From Marinobacter profundi (GTDB lineage Bacteria; Pseudomonadota; Gammaproteobacteria; Pseudomonadales; Oleiphilaceae): a stretch of 64,000 nt of DNA. Positions within the stretch are counted from its first letter, which is position 1; each line of letters starts with the position of its first letter. The stretch spans positions 1 through 64,000 of the forward strand of contig NZ_KZ319374.1 of assembly GCF_002744715.1 (NCBI RefSeq), read 5' to 3'. Of this stretch, positions 940 to 54,569 are shown in pieces. The notes beneath the pieces were generated by a model. The model made no database searches and was not told the origin of the DNA. It saw nothing but the letters and a program-made list of their open reading frames with translations. The position numbers and the translations under genes were made by a program.

Positions 940-1743
940 TCAGTCCGCAAAGATTTCGCGGTAAAACGCCATGGTGCCGTTCCATGAGCGTTCGGCAGCT
1001 GCAGCGTCATAGCCAATGGGCATGCCGAACTCTTCAGCAACCTTGTCGGCGCCGGGGTTGGTGAAGGAATGCAGTACCCCCGGGAAGCTCACCAGGGTCA
1101 GGTCGACCGAGGCATCCTGCATTTCCCTGGCGAGGGCGGCAACCTGTTCGGAAGGCACCATTTTGTCGGCCCCGCCGGTGTAAACCTGCACCCGCGGGAT
1201 AACCTTGCCCGCCTCGGCTTTGATCGGGCTGCCGAGGGCACCGTGGAAGCTGACCACGCCATCGAGGTCGACCCCCAGTCGGGCCATATTCAGCACCACC
1301 GCTCCACCGAAGCAATAGCCCTGGGCGGCAATCTTGCTGGCGTCGACAGTTTCGTGTTGCTGCAGCAGCGTTTTGGCAGCCATAAAGCGGGCCCGGACCA
1401 CGTCCATATCACTGGACGCCGCCTGCATGAACTTTTGGGCATCATCGGGGTGGTCTGCCAGTGTTCCGCTGCCATACATGTCCAGGGCAAAGGCGGTATA
1501 GCCCTCGCCAGCCAGCCGTTCAGCCTGGTTGCGGGCAAACTCGTTGTGGCCCCACCACTCATGAACGACCAATACTCCCGGGCGCTTGCCGGTGAATTCA
1601 TCATCCCAGGCCAGGTAGCCGGTGAACGACGTACCATCGACCTGGTATTCCACGGTTTTGGTCTGTAATTCGGCGATGGCGGATGTGCTTGCAGCGGCCA
1701 GGGTAAGGGCCATGCAGCAGGTGGACAGGGTCAGTCTGGTCAT
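940..1743 (-). CDS. Exported dienelactone hydrolase family protein
   Basis: A 267-residue alpha/beta hydrolase. Residues 1-24 form a signal peptide with a plausible AIA|E cleavage site, so the protein should act in the periplasm, whereas classical dienelactone hydrolases are cytosolic. The catalytic triad can be placed: nucleophile Cys144 in GYCFGG, Asp193 in TGGADKMVP and His225 in GVLHSF. The family hydrolyses enol-lactones in chlorocatechol-type pathways, but many members have unknown carboxylesterase roles. No ring-cleavage gene is nearby, so the substrate is unknown. It is monocistronic, with its own terminator and a divergent neighbour (alanine dehydrogenase). Confidence 0.88.
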   Translation of the reverse strand: MTRLTLSTCCMALTLAAASTSAIAELQTKTVEYQVDGTSFTGYLAWDDEFTGKRPGVLVVHEWWGHNEFARNQAERLAGEGYTAFALDMYGSGTLADHPDDAQKFMQAASSDMDVVRARFMAAKTLLQQHETVDASKIAAQGYCFGGAVVLNMARLGVDLDGVVSFHGALGSPIKAEAGKVIPRVQVYTGGADKMVPSEQVAALAREMQDASVDLTLVSFPGVLHSFTNPGADKVAEEFGMPIGYDAAAAERSWNGTMAFYREIFAD

Positions 1744-1905
1744 AACGGTTGCGCTCCTTGTGGTTGAATCCTGCCGACCGGCGGCAGGGGGGAATCCTTG
1801 CGTTTACGAACCAAAAGCCTCACCCGATGGGTTTGGGTACCCGGGTGAAGTCACTCACTTTTACTACACTTTCAGAAGTTTCTCACATCAGAACAGGGGA
1901 TGCCT

Positions 1906-3021
1906 ATGAAGATCGGAACGCCGAAAGAGGTGAAGAATCATGAGTATCGGGTCGGGATGACCCCGGCGGCGGTTCATGAGCTGACCGGGCATGGCCACGA
2001 GGTATTTGTAGAGACCGGGGCGGGTGAGGCCATCGGCTTTACCGACTGCGACTATGCGGCGGCGGGCGCACAGTTGCTGGACTCCGCGCAGGCGGTGTTT
2101 GATGCAGCCAGCCTCATCGTCAAGGTCAAGGAACTGCAAGCTACGGAGAGGGCCTGGCTGACCCCTGACCATACCCTGTTTACCTACCTCCACCTGGCTC
2201 CGGACCAGGCCCAGACCGACGACCTGGTGAACTCCGGTGCAACCTGCATCGCCTATGAGACGGTTACCGACAGTCACGGCCGGTTGCCGCTGCTGGCGCC
2301 AATGTCAGAGGTTGCCGGCCGGATGGCGGTGCAGGCCGGGGCCTGGTGTCTCGAGAAGTCGATGGGTGGCCGGGGCGTGCTGCTCGGTGGCGTCCCCGGC
2401 GTTCCCGGTGGCCGGGTCACGGTCATCGGCGGGGGCGTGGTTGGCGAGAACGCCATTGCGATGGCGGTAGGGCTGGGGGCCCGGGTGACGGTGCTGGACC
2501 GCAGCGTCGATGCCCTGCGGCGGCTCGACCATCGTTACGGTAACCGGATCACGACCCTGTTCTCCACAGCGCACGGCTTGGACCAGGCGGTCACCGAGGC
2601 GGACCTGGTGGTGGGTGCGGTGCTGATCCCGGGCGCCGCAACCCCCAAACTGGTTACCCGCGACATGGTCAGGCGGATGCCGGCGGGCAGCGTCATTGTG
2701 GACGTCGCCATTGATCAGGGCGGCTGTGTCGAAACCTCCCGGCCCACCACCCATGCCGATCCGACATTTTTGGCGGAAGGCGTGGTACATTACTGCGTGG
2801 CCAATATGCCCGGCGCGGTGGCCAGGACCTCGACCCTGGCCCTGAGTAACGTGACCCTGCCCTACATTATCAGGCTGGCGGACCGGGGACCGGTGGAAGC
2901 CCTGCGGGAGGATCCGCACCTGCGCAACGGATTGAATGTCTACCAGGGCAAGGTAACGTATCGCGAAGTTGCCGAGGCGCGTGGATACCACTACGTGGCG
3001 CCCGAAACGTTGCTCGGGTGA
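1906..3021 (+). CDS. ald: Alanine dehydrogenase
   Basis: NAD-dependent interconversion of L-alanine and pyruvate plus ammonia. The start at 1906 gives 371 residues, the normal family length, and places the expected catalytic residues exactly at Lys75 (KVKELQ) and His96 (YLHLAPD). The ATG 6 nt upstream (1900) abuts the GGGG ribosome binding site directly and is less likely. A Rossmann NAD site, [11 protein letters not shown], lies near residue 170. The C-terminal region ([17 protein letters not shown]) is typical of the AlaDH/PNT family. Cytosolic; probably used in alanine catabolism or nitrogen assimilation. A GST-fold gene follows 33 nt downstream on the same strand. Confidence 0.95.
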
Positions 3022-3054
3022 CCTTTCGTTACTGAATCGGAGAAGTACACGAAC

Positions 3055-3627
3055 ATGAAGCTGATCGGCTCAACAACCTCACCCTACGTCCGCCGCATCC
3101 GTATCCTGCTGGATGAAGAGCCCTACGAGTTTGTCAATCTTGATATCTATGGCGAAGGCCGGGATGAGCTTCGACGGCACAATCCGGCGCTGAAGATCCC
3201 CATGCTGATTGATGAAGGCCGCGAGATCTTCGATTCGCGGATCATCGGGCGTTATATAAGTGCCCGGCAGGGCCGGGACCCCCTGACCTGGGACCAGGAG
3301 AATCAGTTAACGCTGATCGATGCGGCTAACGACTCCTGTGTCACCCTGCTGCTGTCCAAGCGCTCCGGGCTGGACATCGAGCAGGATGCCATGTTCTACA
3401 ACCTGCAGCGGGAGCGGATCATGACGACCCTGCGCACGCTGGCAGCGTTGGTAGATGATGGCCAGTTTGAACAATGGAACTATCCGGCGATCTGCCTCTA
3501 TTGTCTGGTGGACTGGCTGGATTTCCGGGACCTGGTGAGCTTCGAGGGCGTCGAAAGCCTGTTGAGTTTCCGCGACCATTTTCGTGACCAGCCATTCGTT
3601 GCCGCCACCGACCCCCGTAACGCCTGA
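3055..3627 (+). CDS. Glutathione S-transferase N-terminal domain protein
   Basis: A 190-residue protein with a thioredoxin-fold GST N-terminal domain in residues 1-75. The TTSPYVRRIR segment occupies the active-site loop position, with Ser9/Pro10/Tyr11, and KIPMLID supplies the cis-proline glutathione-binding strand. A helical C-terminal half follows but is shorter than in canonical GSTs (about 200-220 residues). It could be a stringent-starvation-protein-like or glutaredoxin-2-like relative; the sequence does not decide. It sits 33 nt after alanine dehydrogenase and may be co-transcribed. Substrate unknown. Confidence 0.8.
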   Translation: MKLIGSTTSPYVRRIRILLDEEPYEFVNLDIYGEGRDELRRHNPALKIPMLIDEGREIFDSRIIGRYISARQGRDPLTWDQENQLTLIDAANDSCVTLLLSKRSGLDIEQDAMFYNLQRERIMTTLRTLAALVDDGQFEQWNYPAICLYCLVDWLDFRDLVSFEGVESLLSFRDHFRDQPFVAATDPRNA

Positions 3628-3721
3628 CCTGCCTCGCTGATTACTTCTGGCCGGGATGCCCTGGGGAGTGTCCTGGAGGGTGCCCGGCCGGCTTCCTGCC
3701 GCTGTGCGGATTTCCGGATTA

Positions 3722-3735
3722 TTGACTATAGTCAA
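3722..3735. promoter_or_regulatory. Perfect palindrome TTGACTATAGTCAA upstream of the Yip1-like gene
   Basis: A 14-bp perfect dyad in the 184-bp gap before the membrane protein at 3812. Each arm contains TTGAC, so it could be an operator overlapping a -35 element. No matching -10 box could be assigned with confidence. Confidence 0.4.
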
Positions 3736-3811
3736 GGGTGACGTCTGTCTTGATCTGTCGCACAGAGCCAGACGTAGATTCAGATGACAACAATAGCAAG
3801 AGGGTTAGGTT

Positions 3812-4423
3812 ATGCTCCTGTCTCATGCGTTTGGTCTGTTTACCCATCCCGATGCCGAGTGGGCGTCCATCCGGAAGGAACACGAAACACCTCGTCGCGT
3901 CTATGTGGCCTACGTTCTCCTGCTGGCCGCGATCGGGCCTGTCTGTGCCTATATTGCCACGGCTCACCTCGGCTGGACTGTCGGTAACGAGCGTCTGATC
4001 AAGCTGACTGAAATCAGTGCCATGCAGCTCAGCGTCCTCACCTACCTGGCGATTCTGGTGGGTGTGTTTGCCCTCGGCTATGCCATCAACTGGATGGCCA
4101 AAACCTACGGTGCCCACGAAGAGCCGAATGCGGCCAATGGCATTGCGCTGGCGGCTTATTCTTGTACGCCGCTGTTCCTGGCCGGATTTGCCCTGCTGTA
4201 TCCGGTGCCCTGGTTCAACGCGCTGGTTTTCCTGGCCGCAGCCTGTTACGGCGCGTGGCTGATGTATGATGGTCTGCCGATCGTGATGGGGATACCGAAG
4301 GAGCGCGCCATCATGTACGGCGGAGCCCTGCTCACGGTCGCCCTGGTGATTCTGGTATCGACCCGGGTGGGCTCGGTCATCCTCTGGAACTCGGGTTTTG
4401 GCCCGGTGTTCATCTCCGGCTGA
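3812..4423 (+). CDS. Yip1 family inner membrane protein
   Basis: A 203-residue integral membrane protein with about five hydrophobic helices (near residues 30-53, 70-94, 110-134, 136-159 and 166-190). The N-terminus LTHPDAEWASIRKE resembles bacterial Yip1-domain proteins, in which a short cytosolic segment precedes the membrane bundle. A conserved proline in helix three (SCTPLFLAGF) also fits. Function in bacteria is unknown. It stands alone on the plus strand, converging on the phosphoketolase-family gene. Confidence 0.75.
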   Translation: MLLSHAFGLFTHPDAEWASIRKEHETPRRVYVAYVLLLAAIGPVCAYIATAHLGWTVGNERLIKLTEISAMQLSVLTYLAILVGVFALGYAINWMAKTYGAHEEPNAANGIALAAYSCTPLFLAGFALLYPVPWFNALVFLAAACYGAWLMYDGLPIVMGIPKERAIMYGGALLTVALVILVSTRVGSVILWNSGFGPVFISG

Positions 4424-4441
4424 CCGGCCTGCATACCCGCT

Positions 4442-6862
4442 TCAGGGCAGAGCCCGGGTGATGATTTCCGGGTTGCCCTGGCCCGCCAGGGCCGCCAGTT
4501 CCGGGCCGCTCAGCCAGTCCTCGGCCGGGCGGTCGCAGATATCGGCGCAGGCCGCAAGGGCGTGAGCCCATGAGCAGCCATTGGCGAACAGCATTCCGGC
4601 TTCATCGAGAGTGCCGCCGTGGTTTATGTAACCCAGGACCCGTGAGCGACCCGCTTCCGGGAACAGTGGCCACAGGTGCCCCCGCAGCACCTCGGGGCGC
4701 ATGTGGGTGAGCGCCACCCGGTGGCGCATGCGTGATGGCAGCAGGCGTTCCCGTTCGAACTCGGACAGGCAACGGTCCGCTTCCATCGAATCGCGGGGCT
4801 GGCGGAATTTGCCAGGCTCCTGCAGGTAAACCAGGCGAAACGGCGTGCCGGTGTCACGCAGCCGTTCGCAGGCGCGGATCAGCTCCGAGAGCTGATAGGC
4901 ACCATTGGCGATCAGCAACAAGGGTTCGCCCGGTGACGTGTCCTCGTCCATGATGAATGCGCCCTGCTGCGCCAGCAGGCGGGCTTCATCCGGCGTGAAG
5001 ACGCAGGGCCGTTGCCGCTTCGGCACCACCATACAGGCCAGCTCCCCCCGGGCCTGGTAAATTTCCGGTAGCACCGCCAGGGTGCTGTTGTAATCGGCCG
5101 GAAACAACACCCGGACACCATCGTTCATCTCCGCCAGCAGGCTTTCGCAGAATGTCGGGTCCTGATGGGACTGTTCGTTCTTGCCGTTTTCCCAGGTATG
5201 GGAGCTGGCCACCACCGGGAAGCCGAGCCACCGGGGCGGGCGTCCGGCCATTTTCTGGTGCCGGGCAAAAATCAGTTCCTGACGAATGGCGCCAAGCATC
5301 TTGACGCAGAAGGCTTCGTAACTGGCCACCAGGTTTAGCCCGGCCTTGTTGGCAAGGCAGGCGGACACCACCGCTTCTTCGTTGAGGGCGGTGATAATCT
5401 GGCCGTGGACCGACTCCTGGTCGTTCTCGGGATCGGTCACCCGGTGTTTCAGGGCTGCGAGGATTCCGCTGAGGCGGTTGCTGGCGAGTTCGTCCGGATT
5501 GCCGACGCGGGGGCGCAGTTGCGGATTGGCGAGGACCAGGGCCTGGAAGAAGTCGTCGATGGCGGCCATTGGTGAACGGGCGCCGGTTGCGGCGGCGATC
5601 TCCGGTATCACCGGGCTTTGCGGGGCGCGGACAGCCAGCGGATGATCCCGTTCCAGCGGTCGTTGCTGGGCGCCGTGGCGGCACAGCAGGGCGGTGGCGC
5701 CGGCCAGTTCGGCCGGGTCGACCCAGAGCTGGCGGACGTGGCTGTTGAACAGTTCCCGGGCGCGGCTATCGAGGCGTGGGTTGCCGGGCAACGGCAGGTT
5801 GTGGGCGGCATTGGTGCCGGCGCCGTAGAAGCCGAATCCCTTTTCGGTCTCGGCGATGCCATAAGGGATCCTGGCGGGATAGTTCAGGGCGCCAGTTGCC
5901 AGTTGCCGTCGCTGCTGCTGTAGCTGTTGTTGCATGTGATACAGGGCACAGACAAAGGCTGCCGGGTCGCGGCCATCGAAGCGAAGCGGTGCAAAGCCGC
6001 GGTGCTCCAGATGCTGGCCAAAGCGTTCAAGCCCGGCACGGGTGCCAAGTTCGGTGCGCTGCTCGATGCGCCGGCCATTGGCAATCATCACCGGGAGCAC
6101 GTCGCCGGTATCTTCGGCCCGCCACCAGCGTGGCACCCAGTCACTGCCGCGCTGCTCCTCGGCGGCACCGTCAGACAGGAAGGCCACCAGGGATTCGCCG
6201 GGCAGGGGCATGTGGGCGTATTGCAGCTCGGCAAAGCCGAGGTAGCCTCCCTCCAGGACGCCGCCGGCGGTGTGGGGGCCGACATGGGAGCCAAGGGGGG
6301 CTGCGACACCGCCATCCGGACGCTGCCGGTAGCTGTAGAAATCTGACGCCAGCCGCGACAGTCCATCCGGGGTGCTGTAGCGCGCCGCCTGCTCCGGATG
6401 CAGGTTGCCGGTGAGCACGTTCAACGCGTCGATCGCCGCAACACAATGTCCCTGGCCCATCAGCCAGCTGCGGGTTTCGCCGGTCAGGGCATTGAGCACC
6501 AGGTAGGCGCCGTAAGCCGGCACCATGTTGAGTGCCCCCCCGGTGTGGCCCTCCGGCTTGGTTTTGAAATCGTGTGCTGCCAGCTCCGCGCCTGACGGAT
6601 CCACCCGGTTGGCGTAGGTCATGTGAACCACAAGCCATAGGCCTGCGCTGGCCAGCCGGTCCAGTGCGGCGAGATGGGCAAACACGGTCGGAAGGTCCGG
6701 CTGGCACCCCCGGGACACCAGGTCACGGGCCATCGCCATGGCCTGGCGCCGGGTTTCGCGGCTATGCCGGAACACGCCGTAACCGTCACACCAGCGCCGG
6801 AACTCCGGGCAGGTACCGGCGTACTCTTCTAGGGTCGGGCTGTTGGCGGGCAAGGGTGTCAT
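4442..6862 (-). CDS. Divergent phosphoketolase-family (thiamine diphosphate) enzyme
   Basis: An 806-residue protein matching the length and order of phosphoketolases (xylulose-5-P/fructose-6-P to acetyl-phosphate). Aligned by eye: GHTGG (105-109) falls at the GPGHGG position. SHVGPHTAGGVLEGG matches the SHVAPETPGSIHEGG motif. SDGAAEE followed by ANGRRI matches the GDG...NG diphosphate/Mg site, with Gly changed to Ser. ASYEAF and SSHTWENGKNEQSHQDP match the second half. The segment that carries the catalytic Glu in canonical enzymes (CEGWLEGY) is replaced by an unrelated stretch starting NEEAVV. Substrate and activity are therefore uncertain. It is alone on the minus strand, with no pentose-phosphate gene beside it. 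Confidence 0.72.
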   Translation of the reverse strand: MTPLPANSPTLEEYAGTCPEFRRWCDGYGVFRHSRETRRQAMAMARDLVSRGCQPDLPTVFAHLAALDRLASAGLWLVVHMTYANRVDPSGAELAAHDFKTKPEGHTGGALNMVPAYGAYLVLNALTGETRSWLMGQGHCVAAIDALNVLTGNLHPEQAARYSTPDGLSRLASDFYSYRQRPDGGVAAPLGSHVGPHTAGGVLEGGYLGFAELQYAHMPLPGESLVAFLSDGAAEEQRGSDWVPRWWRAEDTGDVLPVMIANGRRIEQRTELGTRAGLERFGQHLEHRGFAPLRFDGRDPAAFVCALYHMQQQLQQQRRQLATGALNYPARIPYGIAETEKGFGFYGAGTNAAHNLPLPGNPRLDSRARELFNSHVRQLWVDPAELAGATALLCRHGAQQRPLERDHPLAVRAPQSPVIPEIAAATGARSPMAAIDDFFQALVLANPQLRPRVGNPDELASNRLSGILAALKHRVTDPENDQESVHGQIITALNEEAVVSACLANKAGLNLVASYEAFCVKMLGAIRQELIFARHQKMAGRPPRWLGFPVVASSHTWENGKNEQSHQDPTFCESLLAEMNDGVRVLFPADYNSTLAVLPEIYQARGELACMVVPKRQRPCVFTPDEARLLAQQGAFIMDEDTSPGEPLLLIANGAYQLSELIRACERLRDTGTPFRLVYLQEPGKFRQPRDSMEADRCLSEFERERLLPSRMRHRVALTHMRPEVLRGHLWPLFPEAGRSRVLGYINHGGTLDEAGMLFANGCSWAHALAACADICDRPAEDWLSGPELAALAGQGNPEIITRALP

Positions 6863-44373: not shown

Positions 44374-44423
44374 GGTGATTTCCTCTGGCTAAAAACTGTG
44401 CAGTTTGCGCTTGGAGGTATTAT

Positions 44424-44439
44424 TAGAGTATATACTCTA
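44424..44439. promoter_or_regulatory. Perfect 16-bp palindrome TAGAGTATATACTCTA in the divergent ALDH-TetR control region
   Basis: Lies midway between the two divergent starts (aldehyde dehydrogenase 44373, tetR 44533). Both strands contain TATACT, a good -10 box, within the dyad, so a repressor bound here could shut off both promoters. A TetR-type operator is the natural reading. Confidence 0.65.
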
Positions 44440-44532
44440 GGGAGTCAAGCGAACCCGGCTGGCAGATCGGGCCACCTGTCATTCAGCCGCGGCCAGCGTA
44501 TTTCCGGAGCAATTACAAACGACAGCGAGCCT

Positions 44533-45198
44533 ATGAAAACCAGAGACAAGATCCTGTTGTCGAGCCTTGAGCTGTTCAATGAGCGGGGCGAGCGCAACGT
44601 CACCACCAACCATATTGCGGCCCACCTGGCGATTTCGCCGGGCAACCTCTATTACCACTTCCGCAACAAGTCCGACATCATCTACGAGATTTTCCTGGAG
44701 TATGAAAAGCTGGTGGATTACTACCTGCAGATACCGGACGACCGGCAGCTGACGGTCGAGGATATGACGTTCTACCTGGAGTCGGTGTTTGACGGGTTGT
44801 GGAGCTACCGGTTCTTTCACCGGGACCTGGAGTTTCTGCTCGACAGCGACGAGCGCCTGCGCAGGGACTATCGCGACTTCACCAATCGCTGCCTGGCGGC
44901 CATCGACCGGATCTTCGAAGGGCTTGCGGCCGGCGGTGTGATCCAGCCGCAGCCGGCGGAGTTGCGAGGGGCGATGTCACTGAATGTGTGGCTGGTGATC
45001 ACCAACTGGATGGCGTTCCTGAAAACTGCCCATGCCACCGAGCTGTCCACCAGCCTCACCCTGGCGGAGCTGAAGCAGGGCATCTACCAGGTGCTGACCC
45101 TCGAGTTGCCTTACCTGACACCGCAGTATCGTGACGCGGTTATGGCCATTCGTGAGCGCTACCGGCCCGAACTGCCGTCTGTGGATGAGCGCAGTTGA
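44533..45198 (+). CDS. TetR family transcriptional regulator of the alcohol/aldehyde oxidation cluster
   Basis: A 221-residue protein. The helix-turn-helix is NHIAAHLAISPGNLYYHFRNKSDIIYE (residues about 28-54), a canonical TetR motif. The C-terminal domain has WSYRFFHRDLEFLLDS, typical of regulators related to fatty acid/alkane metabolism. ATG 44533 gives the correct N-terminus (MKTRDKILLSSLELF); the frame is open upstream through the control region. Divergent orientation with the ALDH-Tat-GMC operon and the palindrome between them suggest that it represses both. The ligand is unknown. Confidence 0.92.
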   Translation: MKTRDKILLSSLELFNERGERNVTTNHIAAHLAISPGNLYYHFRNKSDIIYEIFLEYEKLVDYYLQIPDDRQLTVEDMTFYLESVFDGLWSYRFFHRDLEFLLDSDERLRRDYRDFTNRCLAAIDRIFEGLAAGGVIQPQPAELRGAMSLNVWLVITNWMAFLKTAHATELSTSLTLAELKQGIYQVLTLELPYLTPQYRDAVMAIRERYRPELPSVDERS

Positions 45199-45226
45199 GG
45201 ATTGTTTAAAAAATAATCAGGGTTGC

Positions 45227-45254
45227 GGAACTTTTTCTATCCGTCCCAGTCTTA
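45227..45254 (+). promoter_or_regulatory. SigmaE/AlgU-type promoter of the candidate sRNA
   Basis: GGAACTT (45227-45233), 16-bp spacer, TCTTA (45250-45254). This is close to the extracytoplasmic sigmaE/sigma22 consensus GAACTT-N16-TCTGA. It starts 29 nt after the tetR stop. Confidence 0.6.
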
Positions 45255-45260
45255 ATATCG

Positions 45261-45372
45261 ACGTTTGAGGATTCGGACATTCTCTGCGTCATCCTGAGTG
45301 AGTTCTCAGGTTTTAGCACGTCGCAAACCCTGACGTTTCACCGGTCTGTCTTATGGCAGACCGGTTTTTTTT
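45261..45372 (+). ncRNA. Candidate small RNA at the Spot42/ErsA position beside engB
   Basis: The 176-bp gap before engB holds no coding frame but has a promoter and a strong Rho-independent terminator about 112 nt apart. An internal stem CCTGAG/CTCAGG (45293-45298 with 45305-45310) and a single-stranded stretch lead into the terminator. In enterics this engB-flanking slot encodes Spot 42, and in P. aeruginosa it encodes ErsA, which is transcribed by sigma22. The sigmaE-like promoter here agrees. Identity is inferred from position and promoter; no sequence alignment was possible. Confidence 0.55.
45340..45372 (+). terminator. Rho-independent terminator of the candidate sRNA
   Basis: 9-bp perfect stem ACCGGTCTG/CAGACCGGT (45340-45348 with 45357-45365), then a run of eight T. 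It lies 2 nt beyond the engB stop on the opposite strand and points along the plus strand. Confidence 0.9.
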
Positions 45373-45374
45373 GC

Positions 45375-46022
45375 TTAAAGGGTCGCCTCTGCGGCATCTT
45401 CCGGCGCTTCCAGCCATGCCGTCAATGCTGCGCGGCATTCATCCACCCCCTGCTTGCTGGTCGCGGAAAACATGATCAGGTGATGCACGCAGCTGAACTC
45501 TTTCAGGCGGCGACCAATATCCTGCATTGCAGTCTTCGCCTGGCCGAACTTGAGCTTGTCGGATTTGGTAGCAAGGATCATCAGCGGCAGGTTGTTGTGC
45601 TGGCACCACTCCACCATCATCCGGTCAAAGTCGGTCAGCGGGTGACGGATGTCCATCACCAGCACCAGGCCCCGCAGGCAGCGCCGGTCGTTGAGGTAGT
45701 GCCCGAGATGCTGTTGCCAGTCGTCCTTCATGTCGCGGGACACCTTGGCATAGCCATAGCCCGGCAGGTCGACCAGGCGGCAGTTCTCCCGGTTGAGGGA
45801 AAAGAAGTTGATCAGTCGGGTACGCCCCGGCGTCTTGCTGGTGCGAGCCAGCTTGCCATTGGCGGTAATGGTGTTGATGGCACTGGACTTGCCGGCGTTG
45901 GAGCGACCGGCAAAGGCGACTTCGGCGCCGTAATCCGGCGGGCACTCGTCCAGGCGTGAGGCGCTCACCATGAAGCGGGCGCTGTTAAAAGACAGGTTTT
46001 TTTGAGCCAGATCAGCCGACAC
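45375..46022 (-). CDS. engB: Ribosome biogenesis GTP-binding protein EngB/YsxC
   Basis: A 215-residue essential GTPase for 50S subunit assembly. G motifs: GRSNAGKSS (P-loop, about 41-49), TPGRT, DLPGYGYAKVS (switch II) and TKSDK. The start is GTG 46022 (MSADLAQKNLSF); no ATG fits the family N-terminus better. Its neighbours (sRNA slot on one side, cytochrome c4 and dsbA on the other) match Pseudomonas gene order. Divergent from cytochrome c4. Confidence 0.96.
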   Translation of the reverse strand: MSADLAQKNLSFNSARFMVSASRLDECPPDYGAEVAFAGRSNAGKSSAINTITANGKLARTSKTPGRTRLINFFSLNRENCRLVDLPGYGYAKVSRDMKDDWQQHLGHYLNDRRCLRGLVLVMDIRHPLTDFDRMMVEWCQHNNLPLMILATKSDKLKFGQAKTAMQDIGRRLKEFSCVHHLIMFSATSKQGVDECRAALTAWLEAPEDAAEATL

Positions 46023-46044
46023 GGATGAAGGGTTTCCTATTGGA

Positions 46045-46072
46045 TTTCAGTTATCAGGGATTAATGTATAAT
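46045..46072 (+). promoter_or_regulatory. Sigma70-type promoter candidate for cytochrome c4
   Basis: A perfect -10 TATAAT (46067-46072) with a weak -35 TTTCAG (46045-46050), 16-bp spacer. It is 125 nt upstream of the cytochrome start. Confidence 0.5.
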
Positions 46073-46196
46073 GCTACACCAATTCCGGGCAGCGCGCTGA
46101 ACGTTGCTGCTCACAGCCCCGGTTTGTGCCCCATTCGGCCAGTGCCTGCCGGCTGCATAACGAATAATGTCTTTGGATGAGAGAAGCGGAGCGAGC

Positions 46197-46805
46197 ATGA
46201 AAAAACTGATCGCAGGAGTTGTTCTCGGTGTGAGCCTCACGGCTTTGGCGCACGGGGCAGGAGATCCTGAAGCAGGCGAAAAGAATGCGGCCGTTTGTGC
46301 CGGCTGTCATGGCCAGGGTGGTACCAAGCCGGTAATGGCGGTGTACCCGAAGCTGGCTGACATGGGAGAGGTTTACCTTTACCGTCAACTGGTGGACATC
46401 AAGGCGGGCGACCGTGCCATTCCGGAAATGACCGGCCTGCTGGACAACATGTCCGACCAGGACCTGCGTGACCTGGCGGCGTATTTTGATAACCAGGAAG
46501 TGGGCGTCAACCAGGCCAACCCGGATCTGGTTGAGCGTGGTCAGGCCCTGTACCGTGGTGGCAACATGGCTTCCGGTGTGCCTGCCTGTGCCGGTTGTCA
46601 CAACCCCCAGGGCAAGGGTAACGAGCCAGGCGGCTATCCGCGTCTGAGTGGCCAGAATGCCGAGTACGTGGCCAAGCAGTTGCAGGCCTATCGTGATGGC
46701 AGTCGTGCCGGTGGTGCCAACGCCCAGATCATGATGGATGTTGCGGCCAAGCTGACGGACGCCGAGATCGAAGCGGTCGCCAGTTACGTTTCCGGCCTGC
46801 ACTGA
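46197..46805 (+). CDS. Cytochrome c4 (dihaem)
   Basis: A 202-residue periplasmic dihaem cytochrome that donates electrons to cbb3- or other terminal oxidases. The signal peptide covers about residues 1-21. The two haem sites are both CAGCH, one per domain, each followed by a distal Met region (PVMAVYPKLADMG and YPRLSGQN...IMMDVAAKL). Length and duplicated architecture match c4. ATG 46197 with GGAG 6 nt upstream. A terminator follows. Confidence 0.95.
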   Translation: MKKLIAGVVLGVSLTALAHGAGDPEAGEKNAAVCAGCHGQGGTKPVMAVYPKLADMGEVYLYRQLVDIKAGDRAIPEMTGLLDNMSDQDLRDLAAYFDNQEVGVNQANPDLVERGQALYRGGNMASGVPACAGCHNPQGKGNEPGGYPRLSGQNAEYVAKQLQAYRDGSRAGGANAQIMMDVAAKLTDAEIEAVASYVSGLH

Positions 46806-51914: not shown

Positions 51915-54569
51915 ATGAAGCTGGGTAGAAAGAAGGCCGGGGGTGACGCAGCGCCCGACCAGCCGGACAAGCAACTGACGCAAAACAACAATCGCCCTGC
52001 ACCGGCCGGCTCCAGACACAGGGGGCTTTCTGCCGTGGCGCTGGTTCAGGCTGCGGTCGTGGGAGTTGCGGGCGTTGTGGCAACGGTTTTGTTGTGGTTC
52101 TTCGCAGTGGTGCCCGCCACGGAACAGCAGGCCGCGGAACGCGCCGCGCTTGAGCTCGACCACGCCGTACGCCGGGTCAGTCAGCAGCTGGACCTGATGC
52201 AGCAGGTGGTATCCGGCGTGGCGACCCAGCCCCATGTACGGGAGCTGCTGACCACGGTTGCCGCCGACCTTGAGCCGGAACCGCAACTGGCGGGGTTCCT
52301 GCCGGGCGTGCGGGAGGCGCACCTGTTCCCGGTCGGCGCAATTCCGCGCAGTGTCGAGGAAGCCTCGACGGCCGGATTTGCCAGCCTGGACCTTGCCCGG
52401 CAGGCCGAATCCGGCGGCCCCCTGCGTCCTGATGCCTTCCCCCGCAACGGCCAGTGGCTGATCCAGTTTGCTGCGCCGCTGGCGGGCGACGGCCAGGGCC
52501 CGGTTGCCGGTACCCTGTTGGTGCTGTTCGAGGCTGCCGCCCTCATGCCGGTGCTGCAGCCGGTGGACAGTCGCCTCGGTGGTCGGCTGGAGTTGGTGCA
52601 GACCGTATCAGGAAACGCCAGTGTGGTGGCCAGTCGTGGCAGCGCAAATGGCAGTGCGATGGAGCGCAGGTTGCCAATGGCGGGTTGGTCCCTGCGTTAC
52701 ACCCCGGCGTTCGAGCTGTCTGCGGCGATCAGCCCGGGCCTCGCGCTGGTGCTGGCGCTGGTGCCAGCCATCGTGGCCGCGGCGCTGGTCTGGATGCTGC
52801 TCGGTAGCGCCCGGCGAGGCCTGCGAACGGACCTGGCGGAGCTGATCCAGTGGTCGCACAAGACCTTCAGCGGCGAGCGCACCAGGCTGCCGGACTTGCG
52901 TTGGGATATGTTTGCCACGCTGGGGGAAGTCCTCCAGCGGTTGTCCCAGTTGGTGGATAAACGTCTGGCCCGGGGTGCCGGCCCGGCCCGTGCCGTTGCT
53001 CCCGGCGACAGTGGCGAGCCGGCGCCCGCGGACGAGGTGGCAGCTCCGGCCGAGGAGCCGATGTTCCAGGATCGGGACATGCTCGACATGGACATGCTGG
53101 ATGGTGACGAGGATGTCCTGGGTTTCGGCGGCGAGGCCACTGCGGAGCGTTCGCCGGCGGCGGCCTCGGCCTGGGACCTGCCGCCGGCCGCAGCGCCGGA
53201 AGTGCCGCAGGAGATCTTCCGGGCTTATGACATCCGCGGAATCGTTGGCGAGAGCCTGACTGCGGAAGTGGTGCAGCTGATTGGCCGCGCCCTGGGCAGC
53301 GAGGCGGTGGACCGCGGACTCGATACCCTGTGTGTCGGCTATGACGGTCGTCATTCCAGCCCGGAGCTCGCCAACGCGCTGGCACGGGGCATTATGAGCA
53401 CCGGTTGCGACGTTATTCGGGTGGGAGCGGTGCCCACGCCGGTCCTTTACTTTGCCACCCATCAGCTGGAAACCGGTTCCGGCGTGATGGTGACCGGCAG
53501 CCATAATCCGGCCAACTACAACGGCCTGAAGATGATGCTGGGCGGAGAGACTCTTTCCGGTGACGCCATCCAGCAGCTGTACCAGCGCATCCAGGCCGGA
53601 AACTTTGTCGCCGGCCAGGGTAGCAGTTCGGACCGGGACGTCCGTCGCGACTACCTTGACCGGATTGTCGGGGATATTGCCGTTGCTGCTCCGCTGAAGG
53701 TGGTGCTGGATGCCGGCAATGGTATTGCCGGCGAGCTGGCGCCGATCCTGGTGGAGGAATTGGGTTGCGACGTAATCCCGCTGTACTGTGAGGTGGACGG
53801 TGATTTCCCCAACCATCACCCGGACCCGGGCAAGCCGGAAAACCTGGCCGATCTTATCGCGCGGGTGCGTGCGGAGAATGCCGATATCGGTCTGGCCTTT
53901 GATGGCGACGGAGACCGGCTCGGGGTGGTGACCCGCAGTGGCAAGATCATCTGGCCGGACCGGCTGATGATGCTGTTTGCCCGTGACGTGGTATCCAGGA
54001 ATCCGGGAGCTGATGTGCTCTACGACGTCAAGTGCAGCCGGCGCCTCGCCGCCGTGATCAACGAGGCGGGTGGCCGTCCGATTATGTGGAAAACCGGTCA
54101 CTCCCTGATGAAGGCCAAAATGAAGGAAACCGGTGCCTTGCTGGCGGGGGAGATGAGTGGCCATATTTTCTTTGCCGAGCGCTGGTACGGTTTTGACGAC
54201 GGTCTCTACTCGGCGGCGCGGCTGCTGGAAATCCTCGGTGTGGAAGAGCGCAGCAGTGATGAGGTGTTCGAGGATTTTCCGGAAGATATCAGCACGCCGG
54301 AGCTCAACGTTGCCGTCACCGAAGCCAGCAAGTTCGATATTGTCGAGCGGCTGAGCCGGGACGGCAGCTTCGGTGAAGGCAGCCTCAGTACCATTGATGG
54401 CGTGCGGGTGGATTACCCGGACGGCTGGGGGCTGTGTCGCGCCTCGAACACCACGCCGGTGCTGGTACTGCGCTTTGAAGCGGAAACCGAGCAGGCACTG
54501 GAGCGGATCAAAGGCGTGTTCCGGGAGCAGTTGCACCGGATTGCGCCTGATGTAATCGCAGATTTCTGA
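51915..54569 (+). CDS. algC: Phosphomannomutase/phosphoglucomutase AlgC with N-terminal membrane extension
   Basis: An 884-residue protein in two parts. The C-terminal about 455 residues (from EIFRAYDIRGIVGE, about 430 onward) are a complete alpha-D-phosphohexomutase: phosphoserine loop TGSHNPANYNG (about 526-536), metal loop AFDGDGDRLG (about 661-670), sugar loop GEMSGHIFF and phosphate loop near RASNTTPVLVLRF. The first about 430 residues hold two transmembrane helices (about 39-61 and 270-296) flanking a periplasmic sensor-like region, then a low-complexity acidic linker. Pseudomonas algC also has long annotated forms. GGA-rich site (CAGGAAGGACT) precedes ATG 51915. Makes Man-1-P/Glc-1-P for exopolysaccharide and LPS. 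Confidence 0.93.
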   Translation: MKLGRKKAGGDAAPDQPDKQLTQNNNRPAPAGSRHRGLSAVALVQAAVVGVAGVVATVLLWFFAVVPATEQQAAERAALELDHAVRRVSQQLDLMQQVVSGVATQPHVRELLTTVAADLEPEPQLAGFLPGVREAHLFPVGAIPRSVEEASTAGFASLDLARQAESGGPLRPDAFPRNGQWLIQFAAPLAGDGQGPVAGTLLVLFEAAALMPVLQPVDSRLGGRLELVQTVSGNASVVASRGSANGSAMERRLPMAGWSLRYTPAFELSAAISPGLALVLALVPAIVAAALVWMLLGSARRGLRTDLAELIQWSHKTFSGERTRLPDLRWDMFATLGEVLQRLSQLVDKRLARGAGPARAVAPGDSGEPAPADEVAAPAEEPMFQDRDMLDMDMLDGDEDVLGFGGEATAERSPAAASAWDLPPAAAPEVPQEIFRAYDIRGIVGESLTAEVVQLIGRALGSEAVDRGLDTLCVGYDGRHSSPELANALARGIMSTGCDVIRVGAVPTPVLYFATHQLETGSGVMVTGSHNPANYNGLKMMLGGETLSGDAIQQLYQRIQAGNFVAGQGSSSDRDVRRDYLDRIVGDIAVAAPLKVVLDAGNGIAGELAPILVEELGCDVIPLYCEVDGDFPNHHPDPGKPENLADLIARVRAENADIGLAFDGDGDRLGVVTRSGKIIWPDRLMMLFARDVVSRNPGADVLYDVKCSRRLAAVINEAGGRPIMWKTGHSLMKAKMKETGALLAGEMSGHIFFAERWYGFDDGLYSAARLLEILGVEERSSDEVFEDFPEDISTPELNVAVTEASKFDIVERLSRDGSFGEGSLSTIDGVRVDYPDGWGLCRASNTTPVLVLRFEAETEQALERIKGVFREQLHRIAPDVIADF

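Follow-up and report, generated by a model that had tools for sequence, protein, structure and literature searches.

In enteric bacteria, MicA and RybB are σE-dependent small RNAs that repress omp genes, and Spot 42, the product of spf, is encoded beside engB (yihA) and transcribed from a CRP-controlled promoter. σE-controlled RNAs of the Hfq type that are antisense to the start regions of porin mRNAs have been described (PMC1804206). In P. aeruginosa, the small RNA ErsA is located between polA and engB (PMC8575079). ErsA is described as an AlgU-dependent RNA that represses algC and the porin gene oprD with Hfq, acting on oprD at its translation start region (PMC7264166, PMC8395346); its first description is reported to have been that of a Spot 42 orthologue in function (PMC8395346).

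The locus considered here lies in Marinobacter profundi, within a stretch of 64,000 nucleotides that was analysed as a whole and that we refer to as the window. A gap at positions 45199-45374 separates a tetR-family gene from engB (Table 1). We consider it highly probable that this gap encodes a trans-acting Marinobacter small RNA, driven by RpoE/AlgU and of the Hfq type, that represses translation of a porin of the Porin_4 family. Computation shows the RNA gene with its conserved structure, the promoter as a sequence and a specific, co-varying complementarity to the porin leader, and it finds both RpoE and Hfq in the genome.

At the level of sequence, the features of σE-type porin-repressing RNAs are all found, namely the promoter, the terminator, Hfq in the genome and conserved base-pairing at the ribosome-binding site of an omp mRNA. 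The Marinobacter RNA would share with MicA and RybB σE control, the Hfq type and antisense pairing with a porin start region, and it differs from them in having no Rfam match and in its locus. With Spot 42 it has the engB neighbour in common, but an Rfam match is absent and the promoter is of the σE type. Among the matches listed in the open-access literature on Marinobacter small RNAs, judged mostly by title, there was no report of this RNA, and no open-access paper linking Marinobacter with ErsA was found; Marinobacter is likewise absent from the main text of a paper that lists Pseudomon-1 (PMC2864571). A common marine genus gains a concrete candidate for an envelope-stress small RNA, together with a testable target.

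Table 1. Features of the locus, with positions in the window.
Feature	Position	Strand	Remarks
tetR-family regulator	44533-45198	+	same strand as the RNA and upstream of it; PF00440 and PF13972
σE/AlgU-type promoter	45227-45254	+	GGAACTT (-35, 45227-45233), 16-nt spacer, TCTTA (-10, 45250-45254); read directly
Small RNA gene, ~112 nt	~45261-45372	+	5' end (45260-45262) inferred by way of the -10 box, 3' end by way of the terminator
Stem-loop 1	45260-45290	+	changes on both sides in 9/10 consensus pairs
Antisense region for porin ribosome-binding site	45285-45317	+	TGCGTCATCCTGAGTGAGTTCTCAGGTTTTAGC; second genomic BLASTN site, query 87-119
Stem-loop 2	45293-45310	+	CCTGAG - TGAGTT - CTCAGG; inside the porin-pairing region; 98.6% of cells paired
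Stem-loop 3	45318-45336	+	ACGTCG - CAAACCC - TGACGT; near invariant; 99.3% of cells paired
Intrinsic terminator with T8	45340-45372	+	arms ACCGGTCTG (45340-45348) and CAGACCGGT (45357-45365)
engB, ribosome-associated GTPase	45375-46022	-	convergent with the RNA; MMR_HSR1; GTPase_YsxC 239 bits, above cut-off

Conservation and predicted fold of the RNA

A preliminary description of this DNA had placed a candidate small RNA gene in the gap and had proposed that the gap be aligned across related genomes. In a BLASTN search of the 38 genomes of the relatives set, the gap matched all 25 genomes of the same genus, our own included (E <=1.7e-7), and outside the genus it gave weak matches at most, the best being a 20-base stretch with an E value of 0.006. 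A covariance model built from 25 sequences matches the window at 45258-45372 with 120.8 bits, the window being among the sequences from which the model was built. The same model finds the RNA in 113 of 120 Marinobacter genomes, 25 of which supplied the model, and in 65/65 named Marinobacter loci, which were chosen by a 19-base RNA core and overlap the genomes behind the model. Two of the seven genomes without a match under the stricter filters (G146 and G194) still carry the porin-side pattern described below. This conservation within the genus, together with the covariation of the predicted fold, supports the proposed small RNA gene.

The 19-base core, searched against a collection of species genomes, was found on 66 contigs, 65 of them from Marinobacter and one from an Opitutaceae bin (L072); since the covariance model does not match L072, we take that occurrence as chance and do not count it as a homologue. 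Applied to 90 engB flanks from other genera, the model gave four weak matches (best E 0.068), three of which directly adjoin engB in the expected direction, the fourth (L120) lying about 350 bases away. Their scores come largely from the terminator, and we do not claim them as homologues.

The 112-nt RNA is predicted to fold into four stem-loops with an energy of -42.0 kcal/mol, compared with -26.4 +/- 3.3 for 200 shuffled sequences (z -4.7). In the genus alignment (25 sequences, 24 distinct), 16 of the 32 consensus pairs show changes on both sides, as against 7.0 +/- 1.3 in shuffled alignments, the covariation score is 0.255 (shuffled, 0.140 +/- 0.009), and 96.1% of cells are paired, compared with 90.1 +/- 0.5 after shuffling and 31.9-41.6 when the structure is slid along the alignment. 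None of 500 shuffles reaches the real alignment on any of five covariation measures. The loop sequence CGGAC of stem-loop 1 is invariant in 25/25 sequences. Stem-loop 2 has no pair that changes on both sides, and it is therefore backed by folding and not by covariation. Some lineages carry an extra hairpin (for example GCCCC...GGGGC) between stem-loops 2 and 3, right after the porin-pairing stretch; it occurs in the RNA loci of G005, G013, G142, G143, G161, G190, G196 and G203.

Stem-loop 3 lies outside the stretch that pairs with the porin leader, and four of its six pairs never vary. Porin pairing would not require conservation as strong as that of this stem-loop with its loop CAAACCC, and Hfq RNAs often have many targets. 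It is thus a tentative though tenable reading, to which we give less weight than to its opposite, that the RNA regulates several mRNAs, of which the porin's is one, and that stem-loop 3 serves the others. Against it, the 21-mer at 45315-45335 has no second site that recurs at the same gene among 38 genomes with up to three mismatches, a search that short seeds would escape. Regulation of several mRNAs is in any case compatible with repression of the porin. In G015 (L344) the conserved 3' portion of the RNA has a further genomic site, which was rejected as a target, as it lies in the sense direction inside what reads as a lipoprotein-like ORF.

Promoter, terminator and neighbouring genes

The preliminary description had reported GGAACTT-N16-TCTTA in the non-coding gap, followed about 112 nt later by a perfect 9-bp terminator stem and eight T residues. 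Both elements are present as described, the first T of the run (45365-45372) being part of the stem; the terminator scan scores 11 pairs and a loop of 4. Neither the promoter string nor the terminator, taken alone, is beyond chance: GGAACTT-N15-17-TC occurs once in the window (0.78 expected by chance), and one terminator was found in 44400-46200 where 1.5 were expected. The case for an RNA gene is consequently built on conservation, and not on either string alone.

Such conservation is seen for both elements. The pattern GAAC[TC][TC]-N15-18-TC is retained in 24 of the 25 aligned genus gaps and in 54 of 56 additional Marinobacter gaps, the hexamers staying constant against a divergent spacer and a divergent upstream region, so that the earlier assignment to the σE/AlgU type is borne out for the promoter as a sequence. 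The RNA locus of one genome (G015) has no recognisable promoter. In the genus alignment, both partners have changed in six of the ten terminator pairs. The genome encodes RpoE (280 bits against a curated cut-off of 236) and Hfq (102.7 bits against 27). Upstream of rpoE lies a GAACT...TCTA pair, as expected for an autoregulated σE gene, and we take the two ORFs that follow rpoE to be rseA/mucA and rseB/mucB from their expected order.

The RNA is tied to the tetR-family gene more strictly than to engB, since the former lies within 400 nt upstream on the same strand in 25/25 relatives-set loci and 64/65 named loci, and the latter within 300 nt downstream on the opposite strand in 20/25 and 49/65; the 25 relatives-set genomes overlap the 65 named loci, and the two sets of counts are for that reason not additive. 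Among the named loci, engB is 4.6-4.7 kb farther from the RNA in eight and was not found near the RNA in another eight, two of which have less than 100 nt on that side. The block of 4.6-4.7 kb between the RNA and engB (L063, at 948-5431, and L045, L067, L068, L074, L087, L096 and L099) holds in L063, as named by eye, a TRAP-type transporter, a gluconokinase-like gene and a LacI-type regulator. No tRNA was found in five of the loci with this block.

The steadier association with tetR would be expected if the RNA were mainly the 3' UTR and terminator of the tetR transcript, produced by read-through and processing and having no promoter of its own. On their common strand, 28 nt separate the end of tetR from the -35 box, and the terminator scan found no terminator in this interval. 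We nevertheless judge this origin very unlikely, as the -35/-10 pair is kept in 78/81 gaps, unlike the divergent stretch from tetR to the promoter. An RNA processed from a tetR transcript could, moreover, still repress the porin.

Relation to ErsA and to other engB flanks

The preliminary description had called the RNA ErsA-like, on account of its place next to engB and its promoter, and had pointed to algC as a possible target. The likeness holds for the position, the type of promoter and the likely regulatory logic, and it fails for the sequence. RF01719 (Pseudomon-1/ErsA), the covariance model by which the description had proposed to check the assignment, has no match to the window at the gathering threshold or at E <=10, and yet it scores 134 bits at a locus adjoining engB in L225, which comes from another genome of the order. 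Spot 42 (RF00021) likewise gave no match at gathering or at E <=10. A permissive scan of Rfam returned sub-threshold matches alone, most of which include the terminator, the best being anti-hemB at 19.2 bits for a gathering threshold of 49.5, and we do not assign the RNA to any Rfam family on such matches. The position corresponds to that of ErsA on the engB side; the other neighbour is tetR and not polA.

An algC gene does lie nearby in the window, as had been stated, starting at 51915, about 6.5 kb from the RNA. Leaders of 56 window ORFs, picked simply as the longest ORFs and with spurious ones among them, served for comparison. Because a longer antisense ORF displaces algC in this set, the algC leader was scored apart; it pairs with the core of the RNA at -23.9 kcal/mol against a set mean of -24.6, and relative to the separate folds it gains -5.9 net, where the set averages -4.8. 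By this test, which is one of energy only, algC is an average leader, and the proposal that it is the target finds no support. The algC-type protein (51915-54569) has about 430 residues ahead of its phosphoglucomutase/phosphomannomutase domains, which begin at residue 433; this N-terminal extension is possibly membrane-anchored.

A true ErsA orthologue with algC as its main target would be expected at this place and in this direction beside engB, with an AlgU-type promoter, and algC is in the window. Cytochrome c and dsbA-like genes also follow beyond engB, an order that presumably matches the one in P. aeruginosa. Such orthology is nonetheless highly improbable, given that RF01719 recognises a locus beside engB in L225 and not the Marinobacter RNA and that the algC leader energies are average. 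The Marinobacter RNA resembles ErsA in lying beside engB, in its AlgU/σ22-type promoter and in its predicted porin target, and differs from it in the tetR neighbour, in the lack of an RF01719 match, in the pairing region and in the porin concerned (Porin_4 here, oprD for ErsA), algC being unsupported here. Because the sequence, the neighbour on the other side and the algC pairing disagree, we file it outside the ErsA family, as a putative new σE-type porin-repressing RNA at the ErsA position. An RNA with the place and the probable logic of ErsA need not have its sequence.

The promoter pattern recurs at engB elsewhere in the order. Within the last 250 nt and in the direction of the RNA, [GT]GAACTT-N15-17-TC is present in 17 of 90 engB 3' flanks from other genera, compared with 2/90 on the opposite strand, 1/90 in reversed sequence and a mean of 0.37 (maximum 3) in 200 mononucleotide shuffles. 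When 16 engB-flank loci (15 matched by promoter, and L112) were searched against Rfam, L225 alone gave a match, to ErsA. Several flanks, among them L109, L123, L125, L171, L173, L178 and L182, show a σE-type promoter followed by hairpins with C-rich, CCCC-containing loops, and most of these also have a terminator beside engB; such loci are likely to encode undescribed small RNAs.

The recurrence of these promoters suggests a slot for σE-dependent small RNAs beside engB, in which the RNA bodies differ too far to be aligned. The broader proposal, which we regard as evenly balanced, is that the 3' flank of engB is an ancient σE slot of the Pseudomonadales, in which the promoter and an envelope role persist and the RNA body and seed are replaced by lineage, with ErsA in Pseudomonas, a porin-specific RNA in Marinobacter and undescribed RNAs elsewhere; on this proposal the Marinobacter RNA and its porin leader evolve jointly, as an antisense pair with almost no other partners. 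Through the order-wide promoter signal, undescribed σE RNAs can be sought by position and not by sequence.

Complementarity and co-change with a porin leader

In 13 of the 25 genus genomes, BLASTN with the gap found a second site for query positions 87-119 (E 0.001-0.69), and in 13/13 cases this site is the leader of a porin gene, in antisense orientation. The gene product is a Gram-negative porin of 322 amino acids (PF13609, Porin_4, 4.6e-37), and in our own genome the leader sits on another contig, outside the window and hence out of view of the preliminary description. The predicted pairing spans -37 to -3 relative to the porin ATG and covers the Shine-Dalgarno sequence AAGGAAG; 33 RNA bases face a leader stretch of 35 bases, a complementarity longer than in MicA and RybB. 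Shorter overlapping BLASTN matches occur elsewhere too, for example in G008 (query 107-133) and G033 (query 92-121), the latter, by eye, a coding stretch on the sense strand.

The complementarity is specific. In our 4.03-Mb genome the 13-mer CTCAGGTTTTAGC is confined to two sites, of which the first is in the RNA and the second lies antisense to the porin leader. Of its 35 sites across the 25 genus genomes, 17 belong to the RNA and another 17 to porin leaders, one genome having two porins, and a single site lies elsewhere; the reversed control has none in these genomes. In 13 genomes of other genera there are four sites against one for the control. The porin-side pattern of 35 bases, with up to three mismatches, is present in 53 of 120 genus genomes (reversed control, 0/120). 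The porin itself was found in 113 of the 120 (E 1e-15) and in 0/8 genomes of other families at E 1e-20.

Predicted energies point the same way. The RNA and the porin leader of our genome form a duplex of -58.7 kcal/mol, compared with a mean of -35.2 for 100 shuffled RNAs (z -5.5). Of 21 genomes for which RNA and leader were both available, 16 have z values of -3 or below, and those of the other five range from -0.7 to -2.4. A 40-base core of the RNA binds the porin leader at -47.2 kcal/mol, the best of 1162 windows of 110 bases from the 64-kb stretch reaching -40.7 and the best of the 56 window ORF leaders -33.0; once the separate folds are accounted for, the porin leader has a net gain of -23.4, and the best of the ORF leaders one of -13.0. 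For the full-length duplex without unfolding cost, the porin (-58.7) and the best window ORF leader (-55.8) are close, and the separation is for this reason drawn from the core and the net gain.

Changes in the RNA and in the leader were compared in 81 genomes, which are not a random sample, since they comprise the relatives set of 25, 20 known carriers of the leader pattern and 36 others (33 of them without the pattern). At 13 positions around CAGG/CCTG, 950 of 1053 cells are paired, five genomes anchored on a wrong CAGG/CGGG (G018, G141, G152, G163 and G182) being kept in the count. Dealing the leaders to other genomes gave 897 +/- 6.8 paired cells, with a maximum of 921 in 2000 trials, a permutation that overstates significance because the genomes are related. 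Changes on both sides that keep the pair convert G-C to A-U in six genomes, with ten others in the G-U state, A-U to C-G in three and C-G to U-A in three. In G012 a one-base deletion is matched, one U being gone from the RNA and one A from the leader; in G189 the leader lost an A without a matching loss in the RNA. The contiguous pairing run is shorter than 10 bp in 20/81 genomes, four of which are among the mis-anchored. On an engB tree of 47 genomes (of the 54 locus-matched among the 81, the remaining seven having no engB match), one co-varying site gave only two independent pairs, a number too small to reach significance. Changes that match between RNA and mRNA offer a natural record of the co-evolution of a small RNA with its target.

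That the sequence common to the RNA gene and the porin gene is instead a DNA element such as a regulator site, as the palindrome GAGTTAACTC in the porin leader might indicate, is extremely unlikely, for the palindrome is absent from the RNA copy, antisense orientation and Shine-Dalgarno coverage occur in 13/13 second-site genomes, and changes on both sides with G-U states fit RNA pairing.

From the sequence features above we infer that the RNA is transcribed in dependence on σE, binds Hfq and represses the porin. Envelope stress would free RpoE/AlgU, which would transcribe the RNA from about 45261 to its end at 45372. With Hfq, the middle of the RNA (45285-45317) would pair with the porin mRNA from -37 to -3, hiding AAGGAAG and stopping ribosome entry, and less porin would be produced during envelope stress. 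By analogy, this logic is most likely that of MicA and RybB, and that of ErsA on oprD.

Some genomes carry a tandem second copy of the porin gene. That of G019 (L341) keeps GCTAAAACCTGAG and is changed on the Shine-Dalgarno side, that of G023 (L342) keeps GTTAAAACCTGAG with the rest changed, and in G224 (L343) the complement is lost, which suggests that tandem porin paralogues may partly escape the RNA. In one further genome, the porin gene at G009:C3:45587-45832 looks broken, with stops within a 71-residue match, yet the leader retains the complement to the RNA.
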